Assembly: GCF_000147875.1 (NCBI RefSeq)
Contig: NC_014507.1
Location: forward strand, 1,674,001-1,738,000
Direction of reading: 5' to 3'
Source of the DNA: Methanolacinia petrolearia DSM 11571
GTDB taxonomy: Archaea; Halobacteriota; Methanomicrobia; Methanomicrobiales; Methanomicrobiaceae
DNA length: 64,000 bases
The notes under the pieces: generated by a model
Seen by the model: only the letters and a program-made list of their open reading frames with translations
What the model was told of the DNA's origin: nothing
The model's database searches: none
Program-made: the position numbers and the translations under genes
Shown: in pieces, positions 2,287 to 60,954 of the stretch
Position numbering within the stretch: position 1 is the stretch's first letter
Layout: every line of letters begins with the position of its first letter

Positions 2287-2571
2287 ACTGACTTTCCTCC
2301 TATACAGTTCCTTTCATGAGACTGGGACAGAATTTTGTGAAAATGTCAATATAATCCGTTTTATCGCCAGGTAAACGATCAATCTCCAGCATCATTCCCA
2401 ATCTCCAAGATAACAATAGATCATAGATTTTATGTTCCCTAAATAGGATACAACTTTTGGAGTTGCAGCGACGAAAAATTTATTTGGATCTGCAAAACTT
2501 TTTACGAATAATCCCAAAAGTTGAAAGCAATCGGTCTGCCATAACCTTTTTTATTTCTTTATTTCTATTTA

Positions 2572-2795
2572 GGGCGTAAGCCCCTTCGGGGCAGCCCGAT
2601 GCTCAATTCGCTTCGCGAATTTTCGCAAATCGTGATAACCCGGCCTGGATGCTACCCTCCGGGTAGTCTCGGCCGGGAAAAAATTCAGATATACTCGAAA
2701 AGAAAAAAGGAGCCGGAGGAACGCTTGCCCGTCCCGAGGCGACCTATCGCGACGAGGAGGAGGGTTGAAGGGAGGGTGAATCTTCCCCTCGCTCA
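2572..2795 (+). repeat. Family A structured repeat, copy A1
   Basis: GC-rich non-coding element in AT-rich surroundings. In order it carries GCCCC-TTCG-GGGC, AATTCGC-TTC-GCGAATT, a nested hairpin CCCGGCC...GGCCGGG enclosing CTACCC-TCC-GGGTAG, a ~45-base spacer, then a second half of short hairpins (around GACCTATCGC and the GGGAGGG block). The same order recurs at 36.0-36.6 kb and 50.9-51.5 kb. Reading frames through it are not conserved between copies, so I treat it as non-coding. Confidence 0.8.
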
Positions 2796-3213
2796 ATACG
2801 TAAAAAAGTAAGCTCAAATTGGGGTTATTTTCCGGATTAGACACCCATAGATCATACATGAAAAATTAAACGACGGATTGCGATTTATTTTCCCAAAAAA
2901 GGAAGAATCGAAGAGATATAACGGCCTTATATTCAACTCTTTTTTCAGGACGATGTTTTACCTTAACGAAGATGAGATCGCCCCTCTCCGTGCTTCTGTG
3001 TGGATTGAAAAAACGATGATTTGGGCTTGGATTTGGGGTATTTAAGGTTTGCTTTACTGTAATAGGGTTTGATAGGCATCCTTTCTCGCAGAAGAAAGAG
3101 GGTGCAAGAAGGTAAGGGTTGTTAGAGAGCGGGTTGGATTTGTGCTAGCTCTTCGAAAAATTGATATTTTTGAAAATAAATTCGCCCATAATTTAAATTA
3201 TGGCACAGAATAT
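2796..3213. other. AT-rich intergenic stretch, no gene recognised
   Basis: About 400 bases between the family A copy and the TIR gene. I see no coding region above chance. An 18-base perfect palindrome (CCATAATTTAAATTATGG) lies at 3186-3203, ten bases past the TIR stop codon, and may be a terminator or protein-binding site. A 30-codon reading frame at 2953-3045 has no support. Confidence 0.4.
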
Positions 3214-7684: not shown

Positions 7685-7741
7685 ATTTCCTTCCCCCCTC
7701 ACGAGAAAAGATAGCACTGCCGGATTGCTAGCATATCTGAT

Positions 7742-8026
7742 TCAGGCAACCCCGGCACTGGCGGCCAGGCCGCCGGACGGCCCCTGCCCAGGGGCCTTGC
7801 CCTGAGATAGTTCTCTCATGCACGCCCGGGGACCGGCAAGGGTCCCCCGGGCTGTTTAATTTATTCTGCTATGACATGTTCCATTCCATACACGCCTTGA
7901 GTACACCGCGTTCCGCCACGCAGGGGATACTTGTCTATCCCCGGAGTGGCCTATCGCAAGGAGAGGCCCCGCGGTAGGGGCCGGTCCGCGAGCCTGCAGT
8001 GCGGCTCGCGGCGAGGGGTCGCCTGA
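7742..8026 (+). repeat. Family B structured unit B1 (reference description)
   Basis: About 285 bp, GC-rich, bounded by a terminal inverted repeat (TCAGGCAACCCC at the left, GGGGTCGCCTGA at the right). Inside, in order, are hairpins with stems GGCGGC/GCCGCC, GGCCCCTG/CAGGGGCC, GGGGACC/GGTCCCC, GGGGATA/TATCCCC, GGCC/GGCC, GGCCCCG/CGGGGCC and CCGCGAGCC/GGCTCGCGG. Together with the closing stem they could fold into one multibranch structure. Copies at five loci keep the stems while loops change (CGGT, AGGT or GGGT; CTTGTC or CTCGTC). No promoter or conserved reading frame is evident. B1 carries a T-G pair at the base of its first inner stem (CTGGCGGC...GCCGCCGG). Confidence 0.85.
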
Positions 8027-8056
8027 TTTGGATATGTTAGTATATTTAGATCTCAC

Positions 8057-8343
8057 TCAGGCAACCCCGGCACCGGCGGCCGAGCCGCCGGACGGCCCCT
8101 GCCCAGGGGCCTTGCCCTGAGATAGTTCTCTCATGCACGCCCGGGGACCGGCGAGGGTCCCACGGGCTGTTGAAGTTAGTTTTCTTCTCCGGTACCCCGT
8201 ACCGTACACGCCTTGAATACACCGCGTCCTGCCACGCAGGGGATACTCGTCTATCCCCGGAGTGGCCTATCACGATAGAGAGGCCCCGCGGTCGGGGCCG
8301 ATCCACGAGCCTGCTGTGCGGCTCGTGGCGAGGGGTCGCCTGA
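8057..8343 (+). repeat. Family B unit B2, with a compensating stem change
   Basis: Complete unit, joined to B1 by a 30-base linker that ends AGATCTCAC. Its last hairpin reads CCACGAGCC...GGCTCGTGG (8303-8328) instead of CCGCGAGCC...GGCTCGCGG: both sides of one base pair changed, G-C to A-T, keeping the stem. Confidence 0.85.
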
Positions 8344-8366
8344 TTTGGGTTGGTACGTTTAGATCT

Positions 8367-8503
8367 TCCCACGGGTTGTTGAATTTAGTTTGTTACGGTA
8401 TATTCCATTCCGTACACGCCTTGAATACACCGCGTCCAGCCACGCAGGGGATACTCGTCTATCCCCGGAGTGGCCTATCGCAAGGAGAGGCCCAGGGGTC
8501 GTC
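8367..8503 (+). repeat. Family B unit B3, internally deleted remnant
   Basis: The linker AGATCTT runs straight into the middle of a unit, so the left terminal repeat and first three hairpins are missing. The final two hairpins are also lost, CCCAGGGGTCGTC joining the right end directly. The 93 bases from here to the next gene hold nothing recognised. Confidence 0.75.
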
Positions 8504-15032: not shown

Positions 15033-15129
15033 TATGTGAATTATCTCCAGAATCTTTAAAATTCTTTTTATGGGAATGCCGGGCGGATCTACAACCGAAG
15101 CTGATATTTAACATGAAAATCCGGATCAG

Positions 15130-15193
15130 GACACCTTAGATCCCCTGTCCTGATTCCAATAAACTTTTTGGCTCTTTGCTGTTCATGTTTCTC
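15130..15193 (+). repeat. Conserved leader of the second family B array
   Basis: The stretch from TTAGATCCCCTGTCCTG through AATAAACTTTTTGGCTCTTTGCTG is nearly repeated before the third array (20388-20448) and, reversed, beside the array at 54.2 kb. It always lies immediately before the first unit. No canonical TATA box is clear in it. Confidence 0.6.
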
Positions 15194-15477
15194 TCAGGCG
15201 ACCCCGGCACCGGCGGCCGAGCCGCAGGACGGCCCCTGCACAGGGGCCTTGCCCTGAGATAATTTTCTCATTGCACGCCCGGGGACCGACGAGGGTCCCG
15301 GACTATTTTATTTATTTTGCTACGACAGGTTCCTTTCCGTACACGCCTTGAATAAACCGCGTCCCGCCACGCAGGGGATACTTGTCTATCCCCGGAGTGG
15401 CCTATCACAATAGAGAGGCCCCGGGGTCGGGGCCGGTCCGCGAGCCTGCAGTGCGGCTCGCGGCGAGGGGTCGTCGA
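15194..15477 (+). repeat. Family B unit B4
   Basis: Complete unit. Its first inner stem has one mismatch (GGCGGCCGAGCCGCAGG), and the second loop is CAC rather than CCC. It is followed by a ~36-base insert (15478-15513) that also follows unit B8, before a second copy of the right-end sequence TCGTCTGA. Confidence 0.85.
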
Positions 15478-15543
15478 CAATGCACCTGATAAATATTTGA
15501 TCAGATCGTCTGATTTAGATATGTTAGTAAGTTCAGACCTTAC

Positions 15544-15825
15544 TCAGGCGACCCCGGCACCAGCGGCCGAGCCGCTGGACGGCCCCTGCCCAGTGGCCTT
15601 GCCCTAAGATAATTCTCCCATTGCACGCCCGGGGACCGGCAGGGGTCCCCGGACTGCTGAAGTTAGTTTTTTTTCCGGTACTTCTTTCCGTACACGCCTT
15701 GAGTACACCGCGTCCCGCCACGCAGGGGATACTTGTCTATCCCCGGAGTGGCCTATCGCAAGGAGAGGCCCCGAGGTCGGGGCCGGTCCGCGGGCCTGCA
15801 GTGCGGCTCGCGGCGAGGGGTTGCC
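15544..15825 (+). repeat. Family B unit B5, with a compensating stem change
   Basis: Complete unit. The first inner hairpin reads CAGCGGC...GCCGCTG where other copies have CGGCGGC...GCCGCCG: a G-C pair replaced by A-T on both sides. The second hairpin has one mismatch (CAGTGG). The right end is the alternative type GGGGTTGCCAAAG. Confidence 0.85.
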
Positions 15826-15874
15826 AAAGATGTGATCGAGGGATACCACAGTTCTTTGCTGTCTCATGTATTTC

Positions 15875-15991
15875 TCAGGCGACCCCGGCACCGGCGGCCG
15901 AGCCGCCGGACGGCCCCTGCACAGGGGCCTTGCCCTAAGATAATCTTCCAACGGCACGCCCGGGGGACCGGCAAGGGTCCCCGGGCTGTTT
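15875..15991 (+). repeat. Family B unit B6, truncated terminal unit
   Basis: Only the first three hairpins are present; the unit stops after GGGCTGTTTATT. The next ~100 bases (to about 16110) contain a tail, GATTCTTTAGATCCCTTGTCC... and ...CGCCCGTCATGAGG, matched at the ends of the arrays near 22.0 kb and 53.8 kb. Confidence 0.8.
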
Positions 15992-16110
15992 ATTCGCTTT
16001 TGTTTTGAAATCCTGATTGAGATTCTTTAGATCCCTTGTCCTGGTTCCGATAGACGTTGTAGATTATTATCGGTTTTTGTGTGACGGAGCCGCCCGTCAT
16101 GAGGGTTTAA

Positions 16111-16137
16111 CATGAAAATCACGTCGTGATTTACATG
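16111..16137. promoter_or_regulatory. 27-base dyad upstream of parA
   Basis: Two arms CATG-A-AAATCACG and CGTGATTT-A-CATG flank a single central T; the core at 16116-16132 is perfect. It is about 80 bases before the parA start, so it is a candidate operator or partition (centromere-like) site for the ParA system. Confidence 0.4.
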
Positions 16138-16185
16138 AAACAGTGCATGAAACCTTTGTTTCATAAACGCTTTTATTAAAGTTCC

Positions 16186-16203
16186 CATATAATGATTTAT
16201 ATG
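16186..16203. promoter_or_regulatory. Inverted repeat overlapping the parA promoter
   Basis: Arms CATATAA and TTATATG around TGAT form an 18-base dyad whose TATA-rich right arm lies 15 bases before the parA start. It could serve as TATA element and operator together. Confidence 0.4.
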
Positions 16204-16217
16204 AAGGGGGAATCTGA

Positions 16218-17057
16218 ATTTCCATAATTACATTTGCCCATCATAAAGGAGGAACAGGAAAAACCACATCCTGTATAAATATTGCAGGATTTTTACAGAA
16301 GAAAGGGGAGAAGGTTCTTGTTATCGACTGCGACCCGCAGGCCAACGCCACCTCGGGTCTCGGAATAAACCCTGACGAATGCAGCGTAAATATGTACGAT
16401 GTATATATGAACGCATTCGAGGGTTTTCCGGACGTATCCATAAAGGATGTCATCGTCGATACCGAATCGGGGATATCACTCGCTCCTGCTTCCCTCGATC
16501 TCGTAGGCGTAGAGCCGTATCTCTACAGTATCGACGACAGGCTGACTGTGCTGAAAGAATCGCTGAAACCGGTAGAAAACGAATACGATCACATCCTTAT
16601 AGACACTCCGCCGAGCCTGGGCCAGTTCGTCCTCAACGGCTTCATTGCTGCGGACCGGATCATAATCAACCTCGACAGCGGGATGTTCGCACAGAAAGGA
16701 GTAGACAACCTGAAAGCGATCTTTGAAGATATTAAAGAGATTACAGGACGGAGGAAGAGCGCCGACATGGCAATCATCACGAAGACCGGAGATCTTCACG
16801 AGACGAGATCATCTTTCCAGGAGATCGCCCTGATAATAAAAAAGATGCTGAAGGCGGCAGGTGAAGATGAAAATAGCGAAAGAGAGAAGGAGATCGAATC
16901 CATGCTCTCATCATTTGCAGGCAGAACATGCTCCGTGCCCTACGACTACAATATAATAAAGGCACAGCTGAAAGGGCTGCCGATATCGCATCTTTTTCCC
17001 GACAGCCCCGCAGCAGCAGCCTACAGGGAGATTGCAGAAATAATCAGCGTTTGGTGA
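16218..17057 (+). CDS. parA: ParA/MinD-type partition ATPase, AUU start codon
   Basis: 279 residues. The start is read as ATT at 16218: an in-frame TGA lies directly before it (16215-16217), no ATG occurs in frame until 16392, and GGGGG lies seven bases upstream. From there the frame reads [16 protein letters not shown], the deviant Walker A motif with its signature lysine, then [13 protein letters not shown] (Walker A') and HILIDTPPS (Walker B). The in-frame ATG at 16392 would delete the whole nucleotide-binding motif. ParA-type ATPases dimerise on ATP and position DNA or protein cargo. No parB is next to it; a soluble chemoreceptor gene starts five bases later, suggesting the cargo is a chemoreceptor cluster. 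Confidence 0.9.
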
Positions 17058-17061
17058 TATT

Positions 17062-19503
17062 ATGGAAAAAGAATATAATAATTCCAAAAGACCGGGAAGA
17101 AAGGCACTCTTTGTCGGTGCTACAGCCAGACCTGCCTCCGCACCTGAGATTAAGAGCGAAGATCCGGGTAAGGAATTTACCGCCCTGGTCCTTGAGACGA
17201 TAGACAAATTTTGTTCGGGAGAAAAAGAGGCCAGGATTCAGGCTGAGAATATCCCCGGAGAATATACCCCTGCGGCAGATTCAATAAACGGTTTGCTCGA
17301 CACCCTCGCATCCGCCGCCCCGGGAACAGGAGAAGAAAATTCCGGCGAACTCGAATCGCTGTTAAAAGATCTCGAGGAAAAACTCGGCTCTTCAGAAGAG
17401 GAACTGGAAACCGCAAGAGAAGAAGTCTCCAGGCTGAACGATATAATAAAGCAAAAAGAAGACGAGATACCGGAGACCCCCGAAGCGGACCTGAAGGAAC
17501 TTGAAGACAGGTATAATTCCGAGATTGAAGAATTAAAACAAAAGATCCTCCTAAAAGAAGAAGAGAGCCTGAAAAGAGCTGAAGAGATCCGGGCTGAACT
17601 CGAAGAGAAACTGCAGGATGCCGAATCCGGATTAAAAAGGGCGGAGGAAGAGAAAGAACAGCTTTCCGGTCGATACGAAGACAGGTTAAAACAGCAGACT
17701 CAGAAGGCTTCCGGACTTGAAGAGACCAACGGAAGGCTCTTAAAAGAGATAGAGAAATTAAAATCGGAATCCGGAAAGATCGACGAATTAAACAAAAAGA
17801 TCTCTCAGAAAGAGGAAGAGAAACGTGCCCTCCATGCCAGAATAACGCAGGCGGAAGAAGACAAAAAGAAACTTGTCAGGCAGAGCGGAGAGAAGATCGA
17901 ACAATACACGAACCGGATCGCCATTCTAGAAGACGAGAATAAAAAACTCTCTGAGAAACTCAACGAACTCTCCCTGAAAGAAAAAACAGAAAAGGAAGAG
18001 ATAAGAGCAAAAATCGCCGAAGTCGAAGTTTTGAAACAGAGATCAGAGACGATCGTCCAGCAAAACCCGATGCCTATCCTCCTGATGAACGCGGGATTCG
18101 ATATACTCGTTGCAAACTCGGCATATGAAGAGATGAGCGGAATATCCCTGCATAAAATCACGAAGATGAATGCGAGAGATTTCAAGATATTAAAGCAGGA
18201 AGGCGAAGGTCTCGGGTATGCAGTCAAGAACAAGACCCGTGCCAAAGGCGAGATAGAGATTGAGATGCCGTCCGGGATCCATATTCTCGAACAGTACTCA
18301 ATTCCCATATTAAACAATAATAAAGAGCTCAAAAATATCCTGGCGGTCTACAACGATATTACCGAAATAAGAAGAAAGGATGCAGAAATAGAGGAGATCA
18401 GGCAAAAAGAGAAAGAGGAGGCAAAAATACTCTCGGAAAGCGCCGATATTATCACCGAAAAGATGATCGGTATGACATCAGGCGACCTGACGGTAAAAGC
18501 AGAGATATTTAAAGGAGATCCCCTCGCAGTCCTGAAGACCAACTTCAATAAATCGGTCGAAGAATTCAGTAATCTGATCTCCGACATAAATGAAAAGGCA
18601 AATATCCTTGAAGGAACATCCGAAGAGCTCAGCACGAACAGCGACGATATAGCGAGGGCAAATGAAAACCTTGCCCTGGTTTCAGAAGAATCCGCCGAGT
18701 TCCTCAAAGACCTGATGGACAGGTTCGAAAAGATCAACCTCAGCATCTCCGACCTCTCGGCTTCTATAGAGGAGATCTCGAGCACATCCCAGGAGGTTAC
18801 AAAACAGGCGAACCAGGCGGCGGTCGAAGGAAAAAATGCAGCTGAAATAGGCAGGGAAGCCTCGGAAAAGATGGAAAATGTCGGAAAGATCTCACAGCAG
18901 AGCGTAACCGAGATCAATCTCCTCAACCAGGAGATGTACAAGATCAACGAGATCATAAAGCTCATCCGGGGCATTGCCGAACAGACGAACATGCTGGCTT
19001 TAAATGCAGCTATCGAAGCCGCGAGGGCAGGAGAACACGGACGCGGATTTGCTGTTGTTGCAGGAGAAGTCAAGAATCTTGCCGGCGAATCAAAGGAAGC
19101 GACGCAGAAGATCGAACAGCTTATATCCGGAATTCAGCAGAACAGCGACAAGACTGTAGAATCCATGAGACATGCCGACGAAGAGATCCAGGCCGGCATT
19201 ACAAGTGTAAACCAGGCTGTAGAAGCGCTCAACAACATAGCACGGGACATTGAAGTGGCTTCAAGAGGCATCACGGAGATCTCGCACGCGACCGAAACGC
19301 AGGCAAACGATATCAATGCATTCATGAGAAACATCGAGGAGGCCAATGCCCTCGCCAGCGGCAACCTTGAAAAGCTAGAAGGAATGGCCGCTATGGCAGA
19401 GGAGATCAGCGCAACAACCGAGGAAGTGGGAAGCATATCCCACGAAATGCACGATCTTTCCTCGGACCTGCAGAACACGATGAAAAAGTTCAGGATGGAT
19501 TAA
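17062..19503 (+). CDS. Cytosolic methyl-accepting chemotaxis protein with long coiled coil and PAS
   Basis: 813 residues, no TM segment, so probably a cytoplasmic receptor. Order: a short HAMP-like N-terminal unit (about 33-90), a very long Glu/Lys coiled coil (about 95-335), a PAS domain (about 340-440, [25 protein letters not shown]), a HAMP-like segment (about 460-510), and the MCP signalling hairpin with tip [20 protein letters not shown] and [15 protein letters not shown]. Gln/Glu pairs in the signalling helices are potential methylation sites for the CheR encoded next. It is co-transcribed with the ParA gene (five-base gap). The PAS domain may sense redox state or a ligand. Confidence 0.93.
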
Positions 19504-19566
19504 ATTCGTGTCAAAATTCCATAACTTATTATTTTTAAAAGCATAACTAAAACTAAAGGTTCTTTC

Positions 19567-20364
19567 ATGGAGGATAACGATTTTCTTTTGCTCAAGAGAA
19601 GTATTGAAAGGCTTCTCGCAATACAGTGCGGATCATACAAGGAAGATTACATAAAACGCCGTGTGCTGTCCCGGATGAGGATTCGGGGAAAAGAGAACTA
19701 TAAAGATTACAACACCGTCCTTGTCGCGGAAAAAGACGAGCAGGAGGCGCTCAGAAACGCACTTACAATAAATGTCACGAAATTCTGGAGAGACAAAGAG
19801 GTCTTCGACCTGATAAAGAGCGACATTATTCCCGATATAATAAGAAGAAAGGGAAAAGCGAGGATATGGAGTGCAGGATGTTCGACGGGAGAAGAGCCTT
19901 ACACTCTCGCCCTGATCGCATACGATCTCACACGCCTCAAACCCGACTCGCAGGTTACGATATATGCAACCGACATCGACAGGGAAGTCCTGAAAAAGGC
20001 CAAAGAAGGGATATACGACTCCAAATCTCTCGAAAACCTCTCGGAAGGCCAGATAAGGAGGCACTTCACCCAGATTGAAGACGGAAAATTCCAGGTCAAG
20101 CAGCACCTGAAGGACATGGTGCGGTTCTCATGGCACGACCTCATGAGCGGAAAACCTGCGGCGAATTACCTGGATATCGTTACATGCCGCAATGTGACAA
20201 TTTACTTTACGGAGCAGCAGAAGAACGATCTCGCAAAGATGTTCCACCCGGCGCTTGTAATGGACGGCTATTACATCATGGGAAAAACAGAATTCATGGC
20301 AAGAGAGCTTGAAAGCCTCTATAAGCCGTACAATGCGCTTCAAAAAATATACAAGAAAGCATAA
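19567..20364 (+). CDS. cheR: Chemotaxis methyltransferase CheR
   Basis: Transfers methyl groups from S-adenosylmethionine to glutamates of chemoreceptors. 265 residues: helical N-domain (1-65), the INVTKFWRDKEVF motif at 69-81, SAM-binding ARIWSAGCSTGEEPY at 98-112, ATDIDREVL, and the family's CRNVTIYF segment. ATG at 19567; TTTAAAAGC at about 19533-19541 could be a weak TATA element, so it may have its own promoter 63 bases after the receptor gene. With ParA and the receptor it forms a compact chemosensory module that lacks CheA/CheW here; those must be supplied from elsewhere. Confidence 0.95.
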   Translation: MEDNDFLLLKRSIERLLAIQCGSYKEDYIKRRVLSRMRIRGKENYKDYNTVLVAEKDEQEALRNALTINVTKFWRDKEVFDLIKSDIIPDIIRRKGKARIWSAGCSTGEEPYTLALIAYDLTRLKPDSQVTIYATDIDREVLKKAKEGIYDSKSLENLSEGQIRRHFTQIEDGKFQVKQHLKDMVRFSWHDLMSGKPAANYLDIVTCRNVTIYFTEQQKNDLAKMFHPALVMDGYYIMGKTEFMARELESLYKPYNALQKIYKKA

Positions 20365-20387
20365 ATTTGCTATAAACGGGTCCAATC

Positions 20388-20448
20388 CTTTAGATTCCCT
20401 GTCCTAACTCCGATAACCTTTTTAGCTCTTTGTTCTCTCATGCCTTTC
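20388..20448 (+). repeat. Conserved leader of the third family B array
   Basis: TTTAGATTCCCTGTCCTAAC and TTTTTAGCTCTTTGTTCTCTC closely match the leader at 15130-15193. Parts of it (CTCTTTG...CTCTCATGCC) recur as linkers between later units in the array. Confidence 0.6.
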
Positions 20449-20484
20449 TCCGGCGACCCCGGCACCGGCGAGGGGTCGTCTGAC
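20449..20484 (+). repeat. Family B unit B7, 36-base deletion remnant
   Basis: Only the two ends remain: the left terminal sequence GGCGACCCCGGCACCGGCG is fused to the right end GAGGGGTCGTCTGA, removing all inner hairpins. The closing inverted repeat itself survives. Confidence 0.75.
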
Positions 20485-20496
20485 TTGGCCATTTTA

Positions 20497-20779
20497 GCGA
20501 CCCCGGCACCGGCGGCCAGGTCCGCCGGACGGCCCCTACCCAGGGGCCTTGCCTTAAGATAATTCTCTCATTGCACGCCCGGGGACCGGCGAGGGTCCCC
20601 GGACTGTTGAAGTTAGTTTTTTTTTCCGGTACTTCTTTCCGTACACGCCTTGAGTACACCGCGTCCCGCCACGTAGGGGATACTCGTCTATCCCCGGAGT
20701 GGCCTGTCACGATAGAGAGGCCCCGCGGTCGGGGCCGGTCCGCGGGCCTGCTGTGCGGCTCGCGGCGAGGGGTCGTCGA
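20497..20779 (+). repeat. Family B unit B8
   Basis: Complete apart from the first few bases of the left terminal repeat. The first inner hairpin has an enlarged loop (GGCGGCCAGGTCCGCC), shared with B9-B11. The last stem is CCGCGGGCC...GGCTCGCGG, with a G-T pair where other units have A-T. The ~36-base insert seen after B4 follows it. Confidence 0.85.
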
Positions 20780-20846
20780 CAATGCACCTAATGAATATCT
20801 GATCAAGGTCGTCTGATTTGGCCATTTTAGTACGTTCAGATCTTTC

Positions 20847-21132
20847 TCAGGCGACCCCGGCACCGGCGGCCAGGTCCGCCGGACGGCCCCTCCCCAGGGG
20901 CCTTGCCTTAAGATAATTTTCTCATGGCACGCCCGGGGACCGGCGAGGGTCCCCGGACTGTTGAAATTAGTTTTTTTTCCGGTACTTCTTTCCGTACACG
21001 CCTTGAGTACACCGCGTCCCGCCACGCAGGGGATACTTGTCTATCCCCGGAGTGGCCTATCACAAGGAGAGGCCCCGGGGTCGGGGCCGATCCGCGGGCC
21101 TGCTGTGCGGCTCGCGGCGAGGGGTCGTCTGA
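20847..21132 (+). repeat. Family B unit B9
   Basis: Complete unit with right end GGGGTCGTCTGA and linker ending CAGATCTTTC. The last stem has the G-T pair version (CCGCGGGCC / GGCTCGCGG). The second hairpin loop is CCC with the T lost (CCCCTCCCCAGGGG). Confidence 0.85.
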
Positions 21133-21162
21133 CTTGCCCATGTTAGTACGTTCAGATCTTTC

Positions 21163-21445
21163 TCAGGCGACCCCGGCACCGGCGGCCAGGTCCGCCGGAC
21201 GGCCCCTCCCCAGGGGCCTTGCCTGAAGATAATTCTCTCATTGCACGCCCGGGGACCGGCAAGGGTCCCCCGGGCTGTTTTATTTATTTTGCTACGACAG
21301 GTTCCTTTCCGTAGACGCCTTGAGTACACCGCGTCCCGCCACGCAGGGGATACTCGTCTATCCCCGGAGTGGCCTATCACAAGGAGAGGCCCCGAGGTCG
21401 GGGCCGGTCCGCGGGCCTGCTGTGCGGCTCGCGGCGAGGGGTTGC
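21163..21445 (+). repeat. Family B unit B10
   Basis: Complete unit. Its middle is of the second type (TTTTATTTATTTTGCTACGACAGG rather than the TTGAAGTTAG version), and the right end switches to GGGGTTGCCAAAG. The third hairpin is extended by pairing GCCCG with CGGGC. Confidence 0.85.
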
Positions 21446-21495
21446 CAAAGATGTGAGCGAGAGAGACCACAGCTCTTTGCTCTCTCTTGCCTTAC

Positions 21496-21780
21496 TCAGG
21501 CGACCCCGGCACCGGCGGCCAGGTCCGCCGGACGGCCCCTGCCCAGGGGCCTTGCCCTGAGATAATCATCTCATGGCACGCCCGGGGGACCGGCAAGGGT
21601 CCTCCGGGCTGTTTTATTTATTTTGCTACGACAGGTTTCTTTCCGTACACGCCTTGAGTACACCGCATCCCGCCACGCAGGGGATACTCGTCTATCCCCG
21701 GAGTGGCCTATCGCAAGGAGAGGCCCCGGGGTCGGGGCCGGTCCGCGAGCCTGCCGTGCGGCTCGCGGCGAGGGGTTGCC
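21496..21780 (+). repeat. Family B unit B11
   Basis: Complete unit with the second-type middle and the GGGGTTGCC right end. It is joined to the next unit by the CTCTTTGTTCTCTCATGCC linker that also forms part of the array leader. Confidence 0.85.
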
Positions 21781-21828
21781 AAAGATGTGATCGAGAGATA
21801 ACACAGCTCTTTGTTCTCTCATGCCTTT

Positions 21829-21979
21829 TTCGGCGACCCCGGCACCGGCGGCCGAGCCGCCGGACGGCCCCTGCCCAGGGGCCTTGCCTTAAGATAATCT
21901 TCTCATGGCACGCCCGGGGACCGGCAAGGGTCCCCTGGGCTGTTTTATTTATTTTGCTACGACAGGTTCCGTTCCGGTT
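21829..21979 (+). repeat. Family B unit B12, truncated terminal unit, with tail
   Basis: First three hairpins plus the start of the middle region; it stops at GACAGGTTCCGTTCCG. The following tail to about 22045 contains CGCCCGTCATGAGGATTTT, matching the tail after B6 near 16090. Confidence 0.8.
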
Positions 21980-22040
21980 CCAATAAAAAGTGTGGATTTT
22001 CATTAATTTTTATGTGACTAAATCGCCCGTCATGAGGATT

Positions 22041-22298
22041 TTATATGAGGTATTTTTCCTCTTCAGGCTCAGCGACTTTTTCTTCCTTTTGTGTAAACTT
22101 CCTGAGCATCTCCTTCTTCTCGTGAATCCTCTTTATCTCGGCACGAACAATCAGGAAATTAATTGCAATCACGACTATAACAAGCGTCAGGCCGACTCCG
22201 AGCATGACGCCCTGTGTCGTAAAAAAGAGCGCCAGCAGCAGGACTACAAATGAGATCAAATAGAAAATAACCCATGTTCTTACTTCATCAAATTCCAC
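22041..22298 (-). CDS. Small two-helix membrane protein
   Basis: 85 residues with two TM helices (about 8-28 and 32-52) and a highly charged C-terminal tail (AEIKRIHEKKEMLRKF, then EKVAEPEEEKYLI), probably cytoplasmic. Length, hydrophobic pattern and codon use support a real gene; I recognise no family. Its stop codon lies in the tail of the third family B array. It is divergent from the gene at 22418. Confidence 0.65.
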   Translation of the reverse strand: MEFDEVRTWVIFYLISFVVLLLALFFTTQGVMLGVGLTLVIVVIAINFLIVRAEIKRIHEKKEMLRKFTQKEEKVAEPEEEKYLI

Positions 22299-36045: not shown

Positions 36046-36069
36046 TAAAATCACATGTTATTTTAGAAA

Positions 36070-36319
36070 GGCATAAGCCCCTTCGGGGCAGCCCTCTGCT
36101 TAATTCGCTTCGCGAATTTGCGCAAAGATGATAACCCGTCCTGGGCGCTACCCGTTCGGGTAGCCCCGGCCGGGGGGAAAAAACTTACTGGGAACGTAAA
36201 ATAAGTTTTAGAAGGTGGTCCAAAAATTCACGGAGCCGGAGGGATGCCTGTCCATCCCGACGGTGACTATCGCCACGAGGGGGAGGGTTCAAGGGAGGGG
36301 GAAACCTCCCCCTCCCTGT
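36070..36319 (+). repeat. Family A copy A3
   Basis: Full copy: GGCATAAGCCCC-TTCG-GGGC, AATTCGC-TTC-GCGAATT, GCTACCC-GTTC-GGGTAGC inside the CCGG arms, spacer, GGGATGCCTGTCCATCCC, GGCGACTATCGCC and the terminal GGGAGGGGG/CCCCCTCCC hairpin. The inner stem closes with G-C here, against G-T in A1 and A-T in A7. Confidence 0.82.
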
Positions 36320-36340
36320 ATCTATTTCAAATTTTTTAAT

Positions 36341-36613
36341 GTCATAACCCCCTTCCGGGCACCCCTCTGCTTAATTCCTTTCGCGAATTTTCGCAATGGC
36401 GATAGCCCGTCCTGGGCGCTACCCATCCGGGTAGCCCCGGCCGGGGGAGAAAACGTGAGATAAGTTGTAAAAGGTGGCAAAGGATCATCCCGGCTTTTGA
36501 AACGTTAAAAAAGAAAATTCACGGAGCCGGAGGGATGCTCGCCCATCCCGACGGCGACCTATCGCCACGAGGGGGAGGGTTCAAGGGAGGGGGAAATCAT
36601 CCCCCTCCCTGTA
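36341..36613 (+). repeat. Family A copy A4
   Basis: Full copy in tandem with A3, with a slightly decayed first half (CCCCCTTCCGGGC, AATTCCTTTCGCGAATT) and an intact second half ending GGGAGGGGG...CCCCCTCCC. A 35-base fragment with CAGTCCTTCGGTTGCC follows at 36646-36680. Confidence 0.8.
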
Positions 36614-36691
36614 AATTATCTGTCCATTAATTTATCCAAAGTCTCGAAAGGGCAACAGTCCTTCGGTTGCCTCCCCGTCGTTCGAAAATTT

Positions 36692-40893: not shown

Positions 40894-40925
40894 TTTTTTT
40901 AAAGTTCTTTATCTGAACAATAACT

Positions 40926-40986
40926 CAAAACACACACCCCTTATATCAATCGAAAACCTTCTATAAATTAATAAACCGCGAAAAAA
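40926..40986 (+). repeat. Left direct repeat of the PIN-GNAT/ASCH cassette
   Basis: Runs from CAAAACACACACCC to ATAAACCGCGAA. The first 55 bases match 43027-43081 at all but one position, and similarity continues for ~10 more bases. It contains TTATATCAATC and CTATAAATTAATAAACC, TATA-like, so it is probably a duplicated promoter and leader. Confidence 0.85.
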
Positions 40987-40997
40987 AGGTGAAATAG

Positions 40998-41408
40998 TTA
41001 TTGTTTTTTATCCCGACAGAACTCCTCGATTTCGTTATCCACATAACAAAAGGACTGAGGGGGAACGAAATTGTCATAATGAAGTCTTGGATCGATTGGA
41101 TTCTTGAAAGGTGTGAACTCATCAATTCCTATTGCATACCCCTTCGATCTTCCCTCGAAATAATTGAAAAATTCCGATTCGTCAAGTCCCGACTGATCCT
41201 TAACGGCGTCCCACAGATTATCGGGGCGATCCTCCAGTATGTCACCGATTGTAAATTTGCCTACGATCTTTTTTACCGGATGGCTTGAATAAATATATAC
41301 CAGGTCCACGGATTTCTTCTTGAAAATTGATTTCCGGAATTCATACTTCTTCGTTCCCTCAATTATTTTCGACGTATATACAGGTTTAATGGACAGTAAA
41401 ACATTCAT
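40998..41408 (-). CDS. ASCH-domain protein
   Basis: 136 residues from ATG 41408; an upstream in-frame ATG at 41450 is less likely because the conserved domain starts exactly at MNVLLSIKPVYTSKIIEGTKKYEFRK, the classic ASCH opening, with GGTAAG just upstream. ASCH domains have a PUA-like barrel, bind RNA, and some are ribonucleases or modified-nucleoside amidohydrolases. YIYSSHPVKKIVGKF is the central strand pair. The start lies inside the end of the PIN-GNAT gene (23-base overlap), so the two are coupled. AT-rich. Confidence 0.8.
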   Translation of the reverse strand: MNVLLSIKPVYTSKIIEGTKKYEFRKSIFKKKSVDLVYIYSSHPVKKIVGKFTIGDILEDRPDNLWDAVKDQSGLDESEFFNYFEGRSKGYAIGIDEFTPFKNPIDPRLHYDNFVPPQSFCYVDNEIEEFCRDKKQ

Positions 41409-42900
41409 TGATCTTACCAACTTCTTTGAGTTTAATAAATTTTTTATCATCTATCTGATGTATGGATTGGGGGTGGCTTTTCAAAATACCAAGTCTTATC
41501 AGATCGGATAATTCTACTGGCTTCTTAATATTCAAATGGTGTCTGAAAAGAATTATAGTAAGCGGTTTTTGAAATGATTCGATTTCATATTTAGAATAAA
41601 CACTCCTTTTTCCGATAATTTCTCTTATTTCCTCAGGGTCGCTCAGAGAATAATAAACGTCATCAATTACCCCGAGAGATGTAATAGCTTTCAGATCCCC
41701 TGACCTGTAGAAAAGAATAACATCGCCTTTATTCAGCATTTGTATTCTGCTGTTGGTGAGATACGCCTTCTTTATAGTATTTCCTTCTACTATGAACTCG
41801 CCTCTCATCTCCATGATTGTTGCCTGCCTGCCTTTGGGACCATAAAAATCCGTGAACAGGCGATCGTGGAATCCCGGCTGGATTGGTATAACGAATTTCT
41901 TAACCCGACTCCCATCATAAAAGGAAGGATAATAATCCTCAGAGACCTTAAGCGGTGTAAGTTCTTTATAATCCTCTGCACCCGGACATAATTTCTTAAT
42001 GTAAACATCTTCGTTATTATTATCAGGTTTTATACCGGCGTGTTTAAATCCGAATTGTGATATCAGAAAAACAAGTTTATCCTCTTTCTCTGTAAAATGT
42101 GTAAGATAGACTTCCGAAAGATTATTTTCGGCTGCAATTTTAAATGCAACCTTCAATAGCAGTTCACCAATCTTATGACCTTCATGTGATACCTTTAGAG
42201 TTGCAATCTTCAGGCGTTTTTGATTGGGATACGGCGGATTCGAGGGGATAGGCTCCTCTTCGAATTTATATATCATTATTGCGCCTAATGTCCCGTCACT
42301 TTTTTTGCTATAGAAGCATTCTCTTCCCTGCTGTGCGATCTTAGTAAACCACTTCTCAAAATCATAATCCTGCTTTAAACTGTCAAAAAGTGGATCATCA
42401 GGATCAATATCGCTGACATATCCTTTTAGCAGGGGAATCGGTTTAGCTATATAATCCGTTGAAGGCAAATCTTTCTTAAAAAATTCAGTTGCTTCATCCG
42501 GATAAAGAACTCTGTCGGATATATTCAGTTTTAGAGCTTTTGAATGGATTTTAACATCATTGGTAATTAAAAATCCAACTGCATTTTTGTATACCGAATA
42601 TAAGATCAGGTTATCGATCTTGTCGTTAATTCGCTTTGGTTCTCCGATTTTTGTAAAAAAATCATCTTCTTTATCAGGAATTGGAGCATTCTCAAGAATT
42701 TGATAAGCTTCCACTTTGGAAAGGATTATTTCTTTTCTCTTTTGGTTTTTATCTCTTCGAATATCATCAAGTGAAGCAGGATGAAGTAATACGTCGGTAT
42801 GAGTCTGATTCAGGATTCTCATTAAGATGCTGATGTCAGGTGAAACGTTTTTATCGTCTTCCCGGTAGATGAAAATATTCGTATCAATTAAAACTCTCAT
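41386..42900 (-). CDS. PIN-GNAT-PUA-like fusion protein
   Basis: 504 residues with three apparent domains. A PIN nuclease domain (1-145) has acidic residues D6 (IDTNIF), D45-D46, D93/D96 (INDKIDNLIL) and D115 (LITNDVKIH). A GNAT acetyltransferase domain (about 165-305) has acetyl-CoA loop ATLKVSHEGHKIGELLLK and LISQFGFKHAG. A C-terminal PUA/EVE/ASCH-like barrel (about 365-490) contains KGDVILFYRSGDLKAI. PIN domains are ribonucleases, GNAT toxins acetylate charged tRNAs, and PUA-like folds bind RNA, so an RNA-targeting toxin or effector is plausible but inferred. TATA-like sequence at 42957-42967 and GAGGGG before the ATG. Lies inside the R-M locus on the opposite strand. Confidence 0.78.
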   Translation of the reverse strand: MRVLIDTNIFIYREDDKNVSPDISILMRILNQTHTDVLLHPASLDDIRRDKNQKRKEIILSKVEAYQILENAPIPDKEDDFFTKIGEPKRINDKIDNLILYSVYKNAVGFLITNDVKIHSKALKLNISDRVLYPDEATEFFKKDLPSTDYIAKPIPLLKGYVSDIDPDDPLFDSLKQDYDFEKWFTKIAQQGRECFYSKKSDGTLGAIMIYKFEEEPIPSNPPYPNQKRLKIATLKVSHEGHKIGELLLKVAFKIAAENNLSEVYLTHFTEKEDKLVFLISQFGFKHAGIKPDNNNEDVYIKKLCPGAEDYKELTPLKVSEDYYPSFYDGSRVKKFVIPIQPGFHDRLFTDFYGPKGRQATIMEMRGEFIVEGNTIKKAYLTNSRIQMLNKGDVILFYRSGDLKAITSLGVIDDVYYSLSDPEEIREIIGKRSVYSKYEIESFQKPLTIILFRHHLNIKKPVELSDLIRLGILKSHPQSIHQIDDKKFIKLKEVGKINECFTVH

Positions 42901-43026
42901 TGCCCCTCACAATCCACAATTTTTAAAATTCTCTTTATTAAATGACTTTTCGTATGAATATAAAAACATTCTGAGGGGTGTGAAAGTGGATCTCAGTTAT
43001 TTTGGGCTTTACAGACAATATCCATT

Positions 43027-43087
43027 CAAAACACACACCCTTTATATCAATCGAAAACCTTCTATAAATTAATAAACCGCGAGAAAG
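43027..43087 (+). repeat. Right direct repeat of the PIN-GNAT/ASCH cassette
   Basis: Near-identical partner of 40926-40986. Here it leads directly into GGGGGAAATG, the Shine-Dalgarno site and start of the small gene before hsdR, so this copy probably keeps the original promoter function. Confidence 0.85.
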
Positions 43088-50937: not shown

Positions 50938-51060
50938 GGGCATAAGCCCCTCCGGGGGAGAGAAGAAAACCGGAGCCGAAGGGATGCCTGTCCATCCCGA
51001 CGGCGACTATCGCCACGAGGGGGAGGGTTCAAGGGAGGGGGAAATCATCCCCCTTCCTGT
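50938..51060 (+). repeat. Family A copy A5, internally deleted
   Basis: GGGCATAAGCCCC-TCC-GGGG joins directly to the second half (CGGAGCCGAAGGGATGCCTG...), skipping the two middle hairpins; the terminal GGGAGGGGG / CCCCCTTCC hairpin is present. It marks the right edge of the accessory island. A second fragment (GGGCATAAGCCCCC) lies at 51082-51097. Confidence 0.75.
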
Positions 51061-51138
51061 ATCTATTCCAAAACTTTGAGAGGGCATAAGCCCCCTTACC
51101 CTGTATAATTTAGATTTGGAATTTTTCAGGAATTTATT

Positions 51139-51486
51139 TGGGCATAAGCCCCTTCGGGGCAACCCTCTGCTTAATTCGCTTCGCGAATTTACGCAATTGC
51201 GATAGTCCGGCCTGGACACTACCCTCCGGGTAGTCTCGGCCGGGGGGAGAAAACTTCTGGTAAACGTAAAATAAGTTTTAAACAGTAGCCAAAAAAATTC
51301 ACGGAGCAGGAGTGACATTCGCCTGTCCCGGCCGGGGAAGAGATCTATTAGAAAACGTAAAGTAAGTTATAAACAGTAGCCAAAAAAATTCCCGGAGCCG
51401 AAGGGATGCTTGTCCATCCCGACGGCGACCTATCGCCATGAGGGGGAGGGTTCGAGGGAGGGGGAAATCATCCCCCTCCCTGTATA
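51139..51486 (+). repeat. Family A copy A7, expanded
   Basis: Full copy with a duplicated spacer: GTAAACGTAAAATAAGTTTT...AACAGTAGCC and its near-repeat AAACGTAAAGTAAGTTAT...AACAGTAGCC. The inner stem is ACTACCC-TCC-GGGTAGT, the A-T version of the pair that is G-C in A3. Confidence 0.8.
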
Positions 51487-51559
51487 ATAAAAAAATCCCG
51501 AAAAAAATCTATAATAATCAATAACCAATTATAACCCATCATACCAGGAAGGATATCAT

Positions 51560-53754: not shown

Positions 53755-53865
53755 CAACCCGGATAGGTTAAGACAGCAAGCTACGATCGAACCGAAGACC
53801 GGGAATCTGAATTCAGGTGCAGGGATCTAAAGGGTCTCAACCCGGATTTCCAAACAAAACCAGAT

Positions 53866-53984
53866 AAACAGCCCGGGGACCCTTGCCGGTCCCCTGGCGT
53901 GGGGTGAGATAATTATCTTAAGGCAAGGCCCCTGGGCAGGGGCCGTCCGGCGGCCTGGCCGCCGGTGCCGGGGTTGCCCGGTGA
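53866..53984 (-). repeat. Family B truncated terminal unit, minus strand
   Basis: Reading the minus strand, it starts CCGGGCAACCCC, carries the first three hairpins and stops at CTGTTTATCTGG, exactly as B6 and B12 do. The array tail (GGAAATCCGGGTTGAGACCCTT...AGATCCCTG, in parts) lies at 53815-53865. Confidence 0.8.
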
Positions 53985-54011
53985 GATCTTAACATACCAA
54001 CATGGACAAAT

Positions 54012-54206
54012 CAGACGACCCCTCGCCGCGAACCGCACAGCAGGTTCGCGGACCGGCCCCGACCCCGGGGCCTCTCTTTGCGATAGGCCACTCCGGGGAT
54101 AGACGAGTATCCCCTGAGTGGCGAAACGCAGTGGATTCATGGCGTGTACGGAATGAAACATGTCGTAGTAAAATAAATTAAACAGCCCGGGGCCGCCGGA
54201 GAAAGA
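54012..54206 (-). repeat. Family B internally deleted unit, minus strand, with leader
   Basis: The right half is intact. The last stem reads CCGCGAACC...GGTTCGCGG where others have CCGCGAGCC...GGCTCGCGG: another two-sided G-C to A-T change. The left end is a deletion joining CTCCGGCG to GCCCCGGGCTG. The array leader lies beyond it at 54207-54262. Only here is an array on the minus strand. Confidence 0.82.
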
Positions 54207-54283
54207 CACGAGACAGCAAAGAGCCAAAAAGTTTATTGGGGTCAGGGCAGGGAATCAAAGGAAATTAAAACAAAAGGATACGA

Positions 54284-60583: not shown

Positions 60584-60870
60584 CCGGGGCAACCCCGGCA
60601 CCGGCGGCCGGGCCGCCGGACGGCCCCTGCCCAGGGGCCTTGCCTTAAGATAATCTTCTCACGGCACGCCCGGGGACCGGCAAGGGTCCCCGGACTGTTG
60701 AAGTTATTTCACTACGACATGTTCCGTTCCGTACATGCCTTGAGTACACCGCGTCCCGCCACGCAGGGGATACTTGTCTATCCCCGGAGTGGCTATCGCC
60801 ATAGAGAGGCCCCGGGGTCGGGGCCGGTCCGCGAGCCTGCTGTGCCGGCTCGCGGCGGGGGGTCGCCCGA
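60584..60870 (+). repeat. Family B unit B15, single copy
   Basis: A complete lone unit with left end CGGGGCAACCCC and right end GGGGTCGCCCGA. The last hairpin has one extra C (GTGCCGGCTCGCGG). The middle is a mix of both types (TTGAAGTTATTTCACTACGACATG). The linker ...GTATGTTTAGATCTTATTCAGG follows, as if another unit were to begin, but the archease gene starts instead. Confidence 0.85.
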
Positions 60871-60954
60871 TTTGGCCATGTTGGTATGTTTAGATCTTAT
60901 TCAGGGGATTAACGAAGAGCCTTTTTTTAATACAAATCACACAATAATATCAGG

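Follow-up and report, generated by a model that had tools for sequence, protein, structure and literature searches.

The repeated unit of the streptococcal BOX element is about 45 bp long. It lies between two fixed modules, in the order boxA-boxBn-boxC, and the number of units varies between strains at one and the same locus (PMC3049150). Three other kinds of described repeats are relevant here: the prokaryotic MITEs (PMC10969869); the enterobacterial REP/BIME sequences; and the intergenic G-quadruplex repeats of the Methanomicrobiaceae, Methanolacinia included, about half of which are tail-to-tail and 11% head-to-head (PMC8044849).

We analysed a 64,000-bp stretch (the window, bases 1,674,001-1,738,000) of the closed 2,843,290-bp genome of Methanolacinia petrolearia DSM 11571 (PMC3035365; formerly Methanoplanus petrolearius, PMC4149034), hereafter G000. 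It contains several arrays of a repeat called family B. Loci were compared with those of G001, the genome of a sister species within Methanolacinia. The closest known analogue of the arrays, judged by architecture, is the BOX element. Both have fixed left and right modules, variable internal tandem units, dispersed intergenic copies and predicted folding (PMC3049150), and a BOX-type order can be read in family B, with n = 0 in stand-alone elements, n = 2 in array 1 and n = 4 in array 2. The likeness is one of how the elements work, with no claim of sequence relation or membership; unlike BOX, family B has a ~334-bp unit, a palindromic core made by inverted duplication, direct repeats around its frame and an archaeal host. 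One set of its members resembles the prokaryotic MITEs (terminal inverted repeats or TIRs, target duplications, many copies, gene-free, intergenic), from which the family departs by a GC-rich multi-branched core, a second frame bounded by direct repeats, tandem core arrays and the fact that no partner IS was found. Like REP/BIME, it is a mosaic of palindromic modules between genes, but its units are about ten times longer (~334 nt versus 20-40 nt) and one of its frames displays DDE-type TIRs with target duplication. The G-quadruplex repeats correspond to another repeat of the window, family A, which has one hairpin type in common with family B; their description (PMC8044849) covers the G-run/C-run motif, and family B, its frames, TIRs and arrays are absent from it. 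No earlier description of family B was found in the literature accessible without subscription.

Results

TRF gave, for the array at 20.4-22.0 kb, a score of 1591 with a period of 334 and 3.5 copies, and the 334-nt unit used as a query had 52 matches in G000, which excludes chance as the origin of the arrays. The same query matched 51 places in G001. Profile iteration brought the count to at least 59 units or fragments per species within the genome stretches examined; almost every copy matched the profile on both strands because the second half of the core repeats the first in inverted and diverged form. Among 60 relatives searched with the unit, only G001 and, as weak pieces, G009 gave matches; there was none in the third congener, G002 (84% complete). 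The copies are nearly all single and intergenic. A coding role was ruled out: no reading frame is conserved across the units, and the array unit spacings (353, 316, 333 and 333) break the frame. Viral carriage was also rejected, the hairpin pattern being absent from viral contigs. Taken jointly (two frames, arrays as expanded short frames, selfish or neutral role), the explanation that we regard as probable is that the genus Methanolacinia possesses a modular, MITE-like family of non-autonomous repeats, of which the arrays are expanded members.

The core, ~290 nt long, is non-coding, multi-hairpin and GC-rich, and is bounded by a GGCRACCCC / GGGGTYGYC closing stem. It is a giant imperfect palindrome, in which a half with three hairpins precedes a diverged version of itself in inverted orientation (local alignment score of 30 between the halves versus 13 ± 2.3, maximum 22, for shuffles). 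The original prediction recognized two kinds of core middle; both are present and there are others, among them a ~62-bp repeat (TTACATGAAAATCACG...AAACG) that at least eight copies carry at core position ~130. MITEs are typically AT-rich, and the GC-richness of the core weighs against a MITE-like reading.

Several properties of the core would be expected of a structured non-coding RNA gene, or of a regulatory element, amplified for use and raised in dose by the arrays. The fold is strong (RNA z of -6.0) and, across 65 full copies, seven structural pairs figure among the 50 best-covarying of 42,207 column pairs (for example 88-113, with C-G 31 and U-A 25, 256-269 and 181-210). However, the DNA strand folds well too (z of -4.9), the core is reversed at four sites shared by the two species and is often truncated, and Rfam gave no match at gathering over the 64-kb window, nor any up to E 1 over 15050-22100. 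A strand-specific RNA detected through G-U/A-C asymmetry was considered and rejected: the pooled count of 287 to 143 stems from few columns and, once split by helix, the direction is inconsistent, the closing stem and hairpin 6 having more G-U than A-C, hairpin 3 and others more A-C than G-U, so that no single transcribed strand is picked out. Strand-switch repair of palindromes is, moreover, a neutral source of compensatory changes, and the core covariation may have arisen in this way. We therefore hold the RNA gene to be quite improbable. The covarying hairpins could mean a function for the core, which would count against a selfish or neutral role.

A scan for end modules separates two frames around family B sequences, the TIR frame and the short frame. 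The TIR frame has the layout GGCTCTTCGCTGTTTCATGTGGGTA...core...TACCCACGCAGATTAACGAAGAGCC, and its ends are terminal inverted repeats of ~25 bp (GGCTCTTCG...GAAGAGCC), both present in the 15 tested copies. The 8-mers flanking these 15 elements are identical at 93 of 120 positions, versus 51 ± 6 (maximum 72 in 2000) for re-paired ends, and in seven of them the agreement is at least 7/8. The copy at G000:997637 has ATAAAATT on both flanks, and its orthologue at G001 C46:15115 has ATAAAATT and CTAAAATT. In G000, the orthologous sites are empty for two G001 insertions of the TIR frame, one of which possesses both TIRs. From the TIRs, the target duplications and the empty sites, it follows that the TIR frame is a MITE by the defining features: it has TIRs and an 8-bp target duplication, is short (331-539 bp) and carries no transposase gene. 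In the window, this frame is represented by array 0 (7741..8501, + strand; three units by profile matches, two of them full and one partial, with the right end ATTAACGAAGAACC) and by a single unit (60588..60898, + strand; profile matches and end modules). Both had been missed by the original prediction, which listed the arrays at 15, 20.4 and 53.8 kb. Hybrid elements, made of a short-frame leader, a full core and a right TIR, also exist.

For type II MITEs, a partner IS with matching TIRs is usual, yet not defining. None was found in G000 or two congeners, an observation that goes against the overall explanation; the TIR pattern search returned only core-bearing copies or isolated ends, and ISL3, IS1595 and Mutator-type transposases were absent from the Pfam profile search. 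The IS5-family copies of G000 (NF033579) have the ends GGCCTTGTAGAAATCC / GGCTCTGTAGAAAACC and 8-bp duplications; what they have in common with the TIR frame is limited to the GGCTCT end and the 8-bp duplications, so that a link is only suggestive. The TIR form would have been mobilized in trans by a DDE transposase that may since have been lost.

The short frame consists of a ~43-bp direct repeat, CTTTTTGGCTCTTTGCTGTCTCATG, a three-hairpin half core, a second direct repeat and a tail extending to CGCCCGTCATGAGG. It occurs alone, with zero full units, as at G000:538049 and G001 C11:9632. When the full units are removed from arrays 1 and 2, the remaining leader, last unit and tail align end to end with these stand-alone elements, which means that the truncated last unit is the short-frame half core and that the full units lie inside the frame. 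On this alignment, the arrays at 15, 20 and 54 kb appear to be short-frame elements holding extra full cores, with the leader on one side and the last unit and tail on the other as the two ends of the frame.

Array 1 (+ strand) starts with the short-frame left end at 15118..15183, formed by the direct repeat (15118-15160) and the CTCTTTG module; it was delimited by the module scan and the alignment with stand-alone elements, and is kept in G001. Two full units with their linkers follow at 15192..15862 (profile matches 15192-15505 and 15542-15862), then the three-hairpin half core at 15873..16002, which is the same as that of the stand-alone elements, and, by module scan and short-element alignment, the second direct repeat (16008-16048) with the tail to CGCCCGTCATGAGG (16008..16104). 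Beyond the tail, the module scan places a ~62-bp repeat at about 16110-16170. In array 2 (+ strand), the leader (20388..20480; sequence and module scan) comprises a partial direct repeat, the CTCTTTG module and a collapsed closing-stem stub, GGCGACCCCGGCACCGGCGAGGGGTCGTC; it is as originally described save for this stub, which had been left unlisted. The four full units and their linkers (20492..21818; TRF and profile matches) start at 20492, 20845, 21161 and 21494, and 21827..22037 holds the truncated last unit with its tail, which runs to CGCCCGTCATGAGG (profile and short-element alignment). Array 3 (53815..54262, - strand; profile and module scan) contains a leader, the 3' part of a unit (53989-54192), a truncated last unit (53846-53979) and the second direct repeat; the predicted inverted array at 53.8-54.3 kb is real and amounts to about one unit in total, a 3' part then a 5' half. 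The leader, two kinds of linker, two kinds of middle, truncated last unit and tail that had been reported were all recovered from the sequence, and the two linkers match the two leaders, CTCTTTG... being the end of the short-frame leader and ...GTTCAGATCTTACTC that of the TIR-frame leader.

It had been argued that such an order does not result from random tandem duplication, and we reach the same conclusion. Random local duplication of ordinary intergenic sequence, with a coincidental truncated end, leaves unexplained the joint presence at other loci of the leader, half core, direct repeat and tail with no full unit among them. Local tandem duplication does happen: within array 2, unit 3 is 94% identical to unit 4, versus about 80% on average between array units and dispersed copies, which fits a recent tandem duplication. 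As the origin of the arrays themselves, however, it is hardly credible. Rather, for arrays built as short-frame elements, recombination with copies that hold a full core would bring full cores into the frame, and unequal exchange or slippage between units of near-identical sequence would add or remove units without altering the ends. Outside the arrays, there was no distance-dependent homogenization of copies (Mantel p 0.71). The short frame is bounded by direct repeats and its sole candidate empty site is not clean, a point against the overall explanation; we reserve MITE status for the TIR-frame members and set the short frame apart, as at most a candidate for mobility.

The original prediction viewed the whole array as a heritable element that grows or shrinks internally, to be checked on orthologous intergenic regions. 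G001 does have arrays at the loci orthologous to those of G000, between the same neighbouring genes and with a different unit content. At array 1, the flanks and leader are conserved and G001 retains the last full unit at about 95%, but its version is 299 bp shorter and has lost the beginning of unit 1 as well as the greater part of the final half core; the retention of the leader and flanks and the change in units support inheritance with internal gain and loss. The rule that the last unit always stops after three hairpins applies to the three G000 arrays, and is broken by this G001 orthologue, which ends in a closing-stem stub. The G001 orthologues of the 20.4 kb and 7.7 kb arrays contain runs of N and were left out of the unit-number comparison.

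Most of the family B sites compared are occupied in both species, with contents that can differ. One intergenic site (G000 1328438 / G001 C27:34142) carries a full core plus right TIR or a short element depending on the species, and another (G000 958170 / G001 C28) one core versus two. Both species have full cores at 16 of the shared sites, and nine of these sites are not reciprocal best matches (a count that leaves out the pairing G000 1570133 / C43:8984, the true orthologue being C43:10244), which indicates that replacement or recombination among copies is common. Core orientation is reversed at four shared sites. At L031/L070 only the core enclosed by the closing stems has switched; at the other three the leader turns as well, and independent insertion is possible. 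Change is thus not internal only: units are gained and lost, but at many loci the core has also been exchanged, replaced or inverted from one species to the other, and the basic entity that is inherited and moves is the single element, present in ~60 copies, rather than the array.

Of 79 family B clusters, 35 lie in convergent and 11 in divergent gaps (rough ORF calls). This bias, the occupation of most compared sites in both species and the presence of one hairpin in other repeat families across the order would all suit a REP/BIME-like role, in which cores are bidirectional terminators, mRNA-end stabilizers or protein sites selected downstream of genes. Yet promoter avoidance alone gives such a gap bias for any tolerated insertion, and several orthologous sites show presence in one species and absence in the other. 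We consider this role unlikely; most likely, family B is selfish or neutral DNA that genomes tolerate, chiefly in positions downstream of genes.

The core hairpin GGGGATACTYGTCTATCCCC has exact matches in Methanospirillum and Methanoregulaceae records, within other GC-rich repeats. Searched as GGGGATRCYYGTCYATCCCC, it is found in 11 of 150 Methanomicrobiales genomes, with 0 matches for the reversed pattern; an 18-nt form is present in 13 of 393 genomes of the phylum, all within the order (0/310 outside it). Family A of the window carries a G-C version of the hairpin and matches the published G-quadruplex/hairpin repeats, down to the Methanolacinia central loop TTCAA (PMC8044849). A generic GGGAT-8-ATCCC palindrome occurs in nearly all genomes of the order, and hence the restricted part is the loop and the R-Y pair, not the stem. 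The shared hairpin may descend from one ancestral repeat module, or it may be a recognition site that has been maintained. We tentatively raise the possibility that GGGATRCYYGTCYATCCC, with its covarying R-Y pair, is an order-wide Methanomicrobiales signal recognized by a conserved protein or transposition machinery, in which case the cores would be a selected structure, of DNA or RNA, and not inert filler. The proposed carriers of this signal, namely the family B core, family A and the repeats of Methanoregulaceae and Methanospirillum, are otherwise unrelated.

Discussion

A known kind of element resolves the puzzle posed by the order of the arrays. Family B provides an archaeal counterpart of modular repeats of the BOX type, and its two ends and its form with zero units are identified. 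With the two Methanolacinia species as a pair, one can trace locus by locus how units are gained and lost, cores are replaced and orientation changes. The order-wide hairpin is what is most worth following: occurring in unrelated repeats, it could be used as a bait for the binder or mobilizer of structured intergenic repeats in methanogens.

Core orientation and associated repeats

At the sites shared by the two species as the sequence stretches L031/L070, L018/L126, L037/L136 and L040/L068, the family B core was found to be reversed from one species to the other, and comparison of L031 with L070 showed that the closing stems delimit this switch in orientation. A repeat of ~62 bp (TTACATGAAAATCACGTTGTGATTTACATGAAACAGTGCATGAAACCTTTGTTTCATAAACG) recurs at core position ~130 and also in tails (window 16110-16170; M. 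petrolearia genome, 765769 and 1570133; sister genome, C30:30095, C32:85230 and C41:56789); possible readings are a very small mobile element in its own right or a module of the short frame.

Other repeated sequences were also seen. Two copies, 97% identical, of a 61-bp direct repeat, TCAAAACACACACCCCTTATATCAATCG... (window 40925-40985 and 43026-43086, spacing 2.1 kb) bracket the ORFs at 40998-42900. M. petrolearia carries IS5-family insertion sequences (L175 and L176, on C1 at about 283 kb and 381 kb), with 8-bp duplications CAATTTTT and AATTTTTC; the transposase profile used for these copies gave no match in the sister genome.

Similar hairpins outside family B

A second dispersed intergenic family, family A (window 2563-2860, 36060-36620 and 50971-51490), contains GGGGGAGGGTTCAAGGGAGGGGG...TCCCCCTCCCT and corresponds to the repetitive G-quadruplex sequences described in PMC8044849. 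In its hairpin, GGGATGCYYGTCCATCCC, family A shows the G-C form of the one found in family B. Long GC-rich intergenic repeats with multiple hairpins also occur in Methanospirillum, Methanoregulaceae and other Methanomicrobiales, which have repeats of their own (L178-L181, L187, L188, L191 and L192); these surround the shared hairpin, with the pattern GGAGAGGAGGAGCC...GGGGATACTYGTCTATCCCC....
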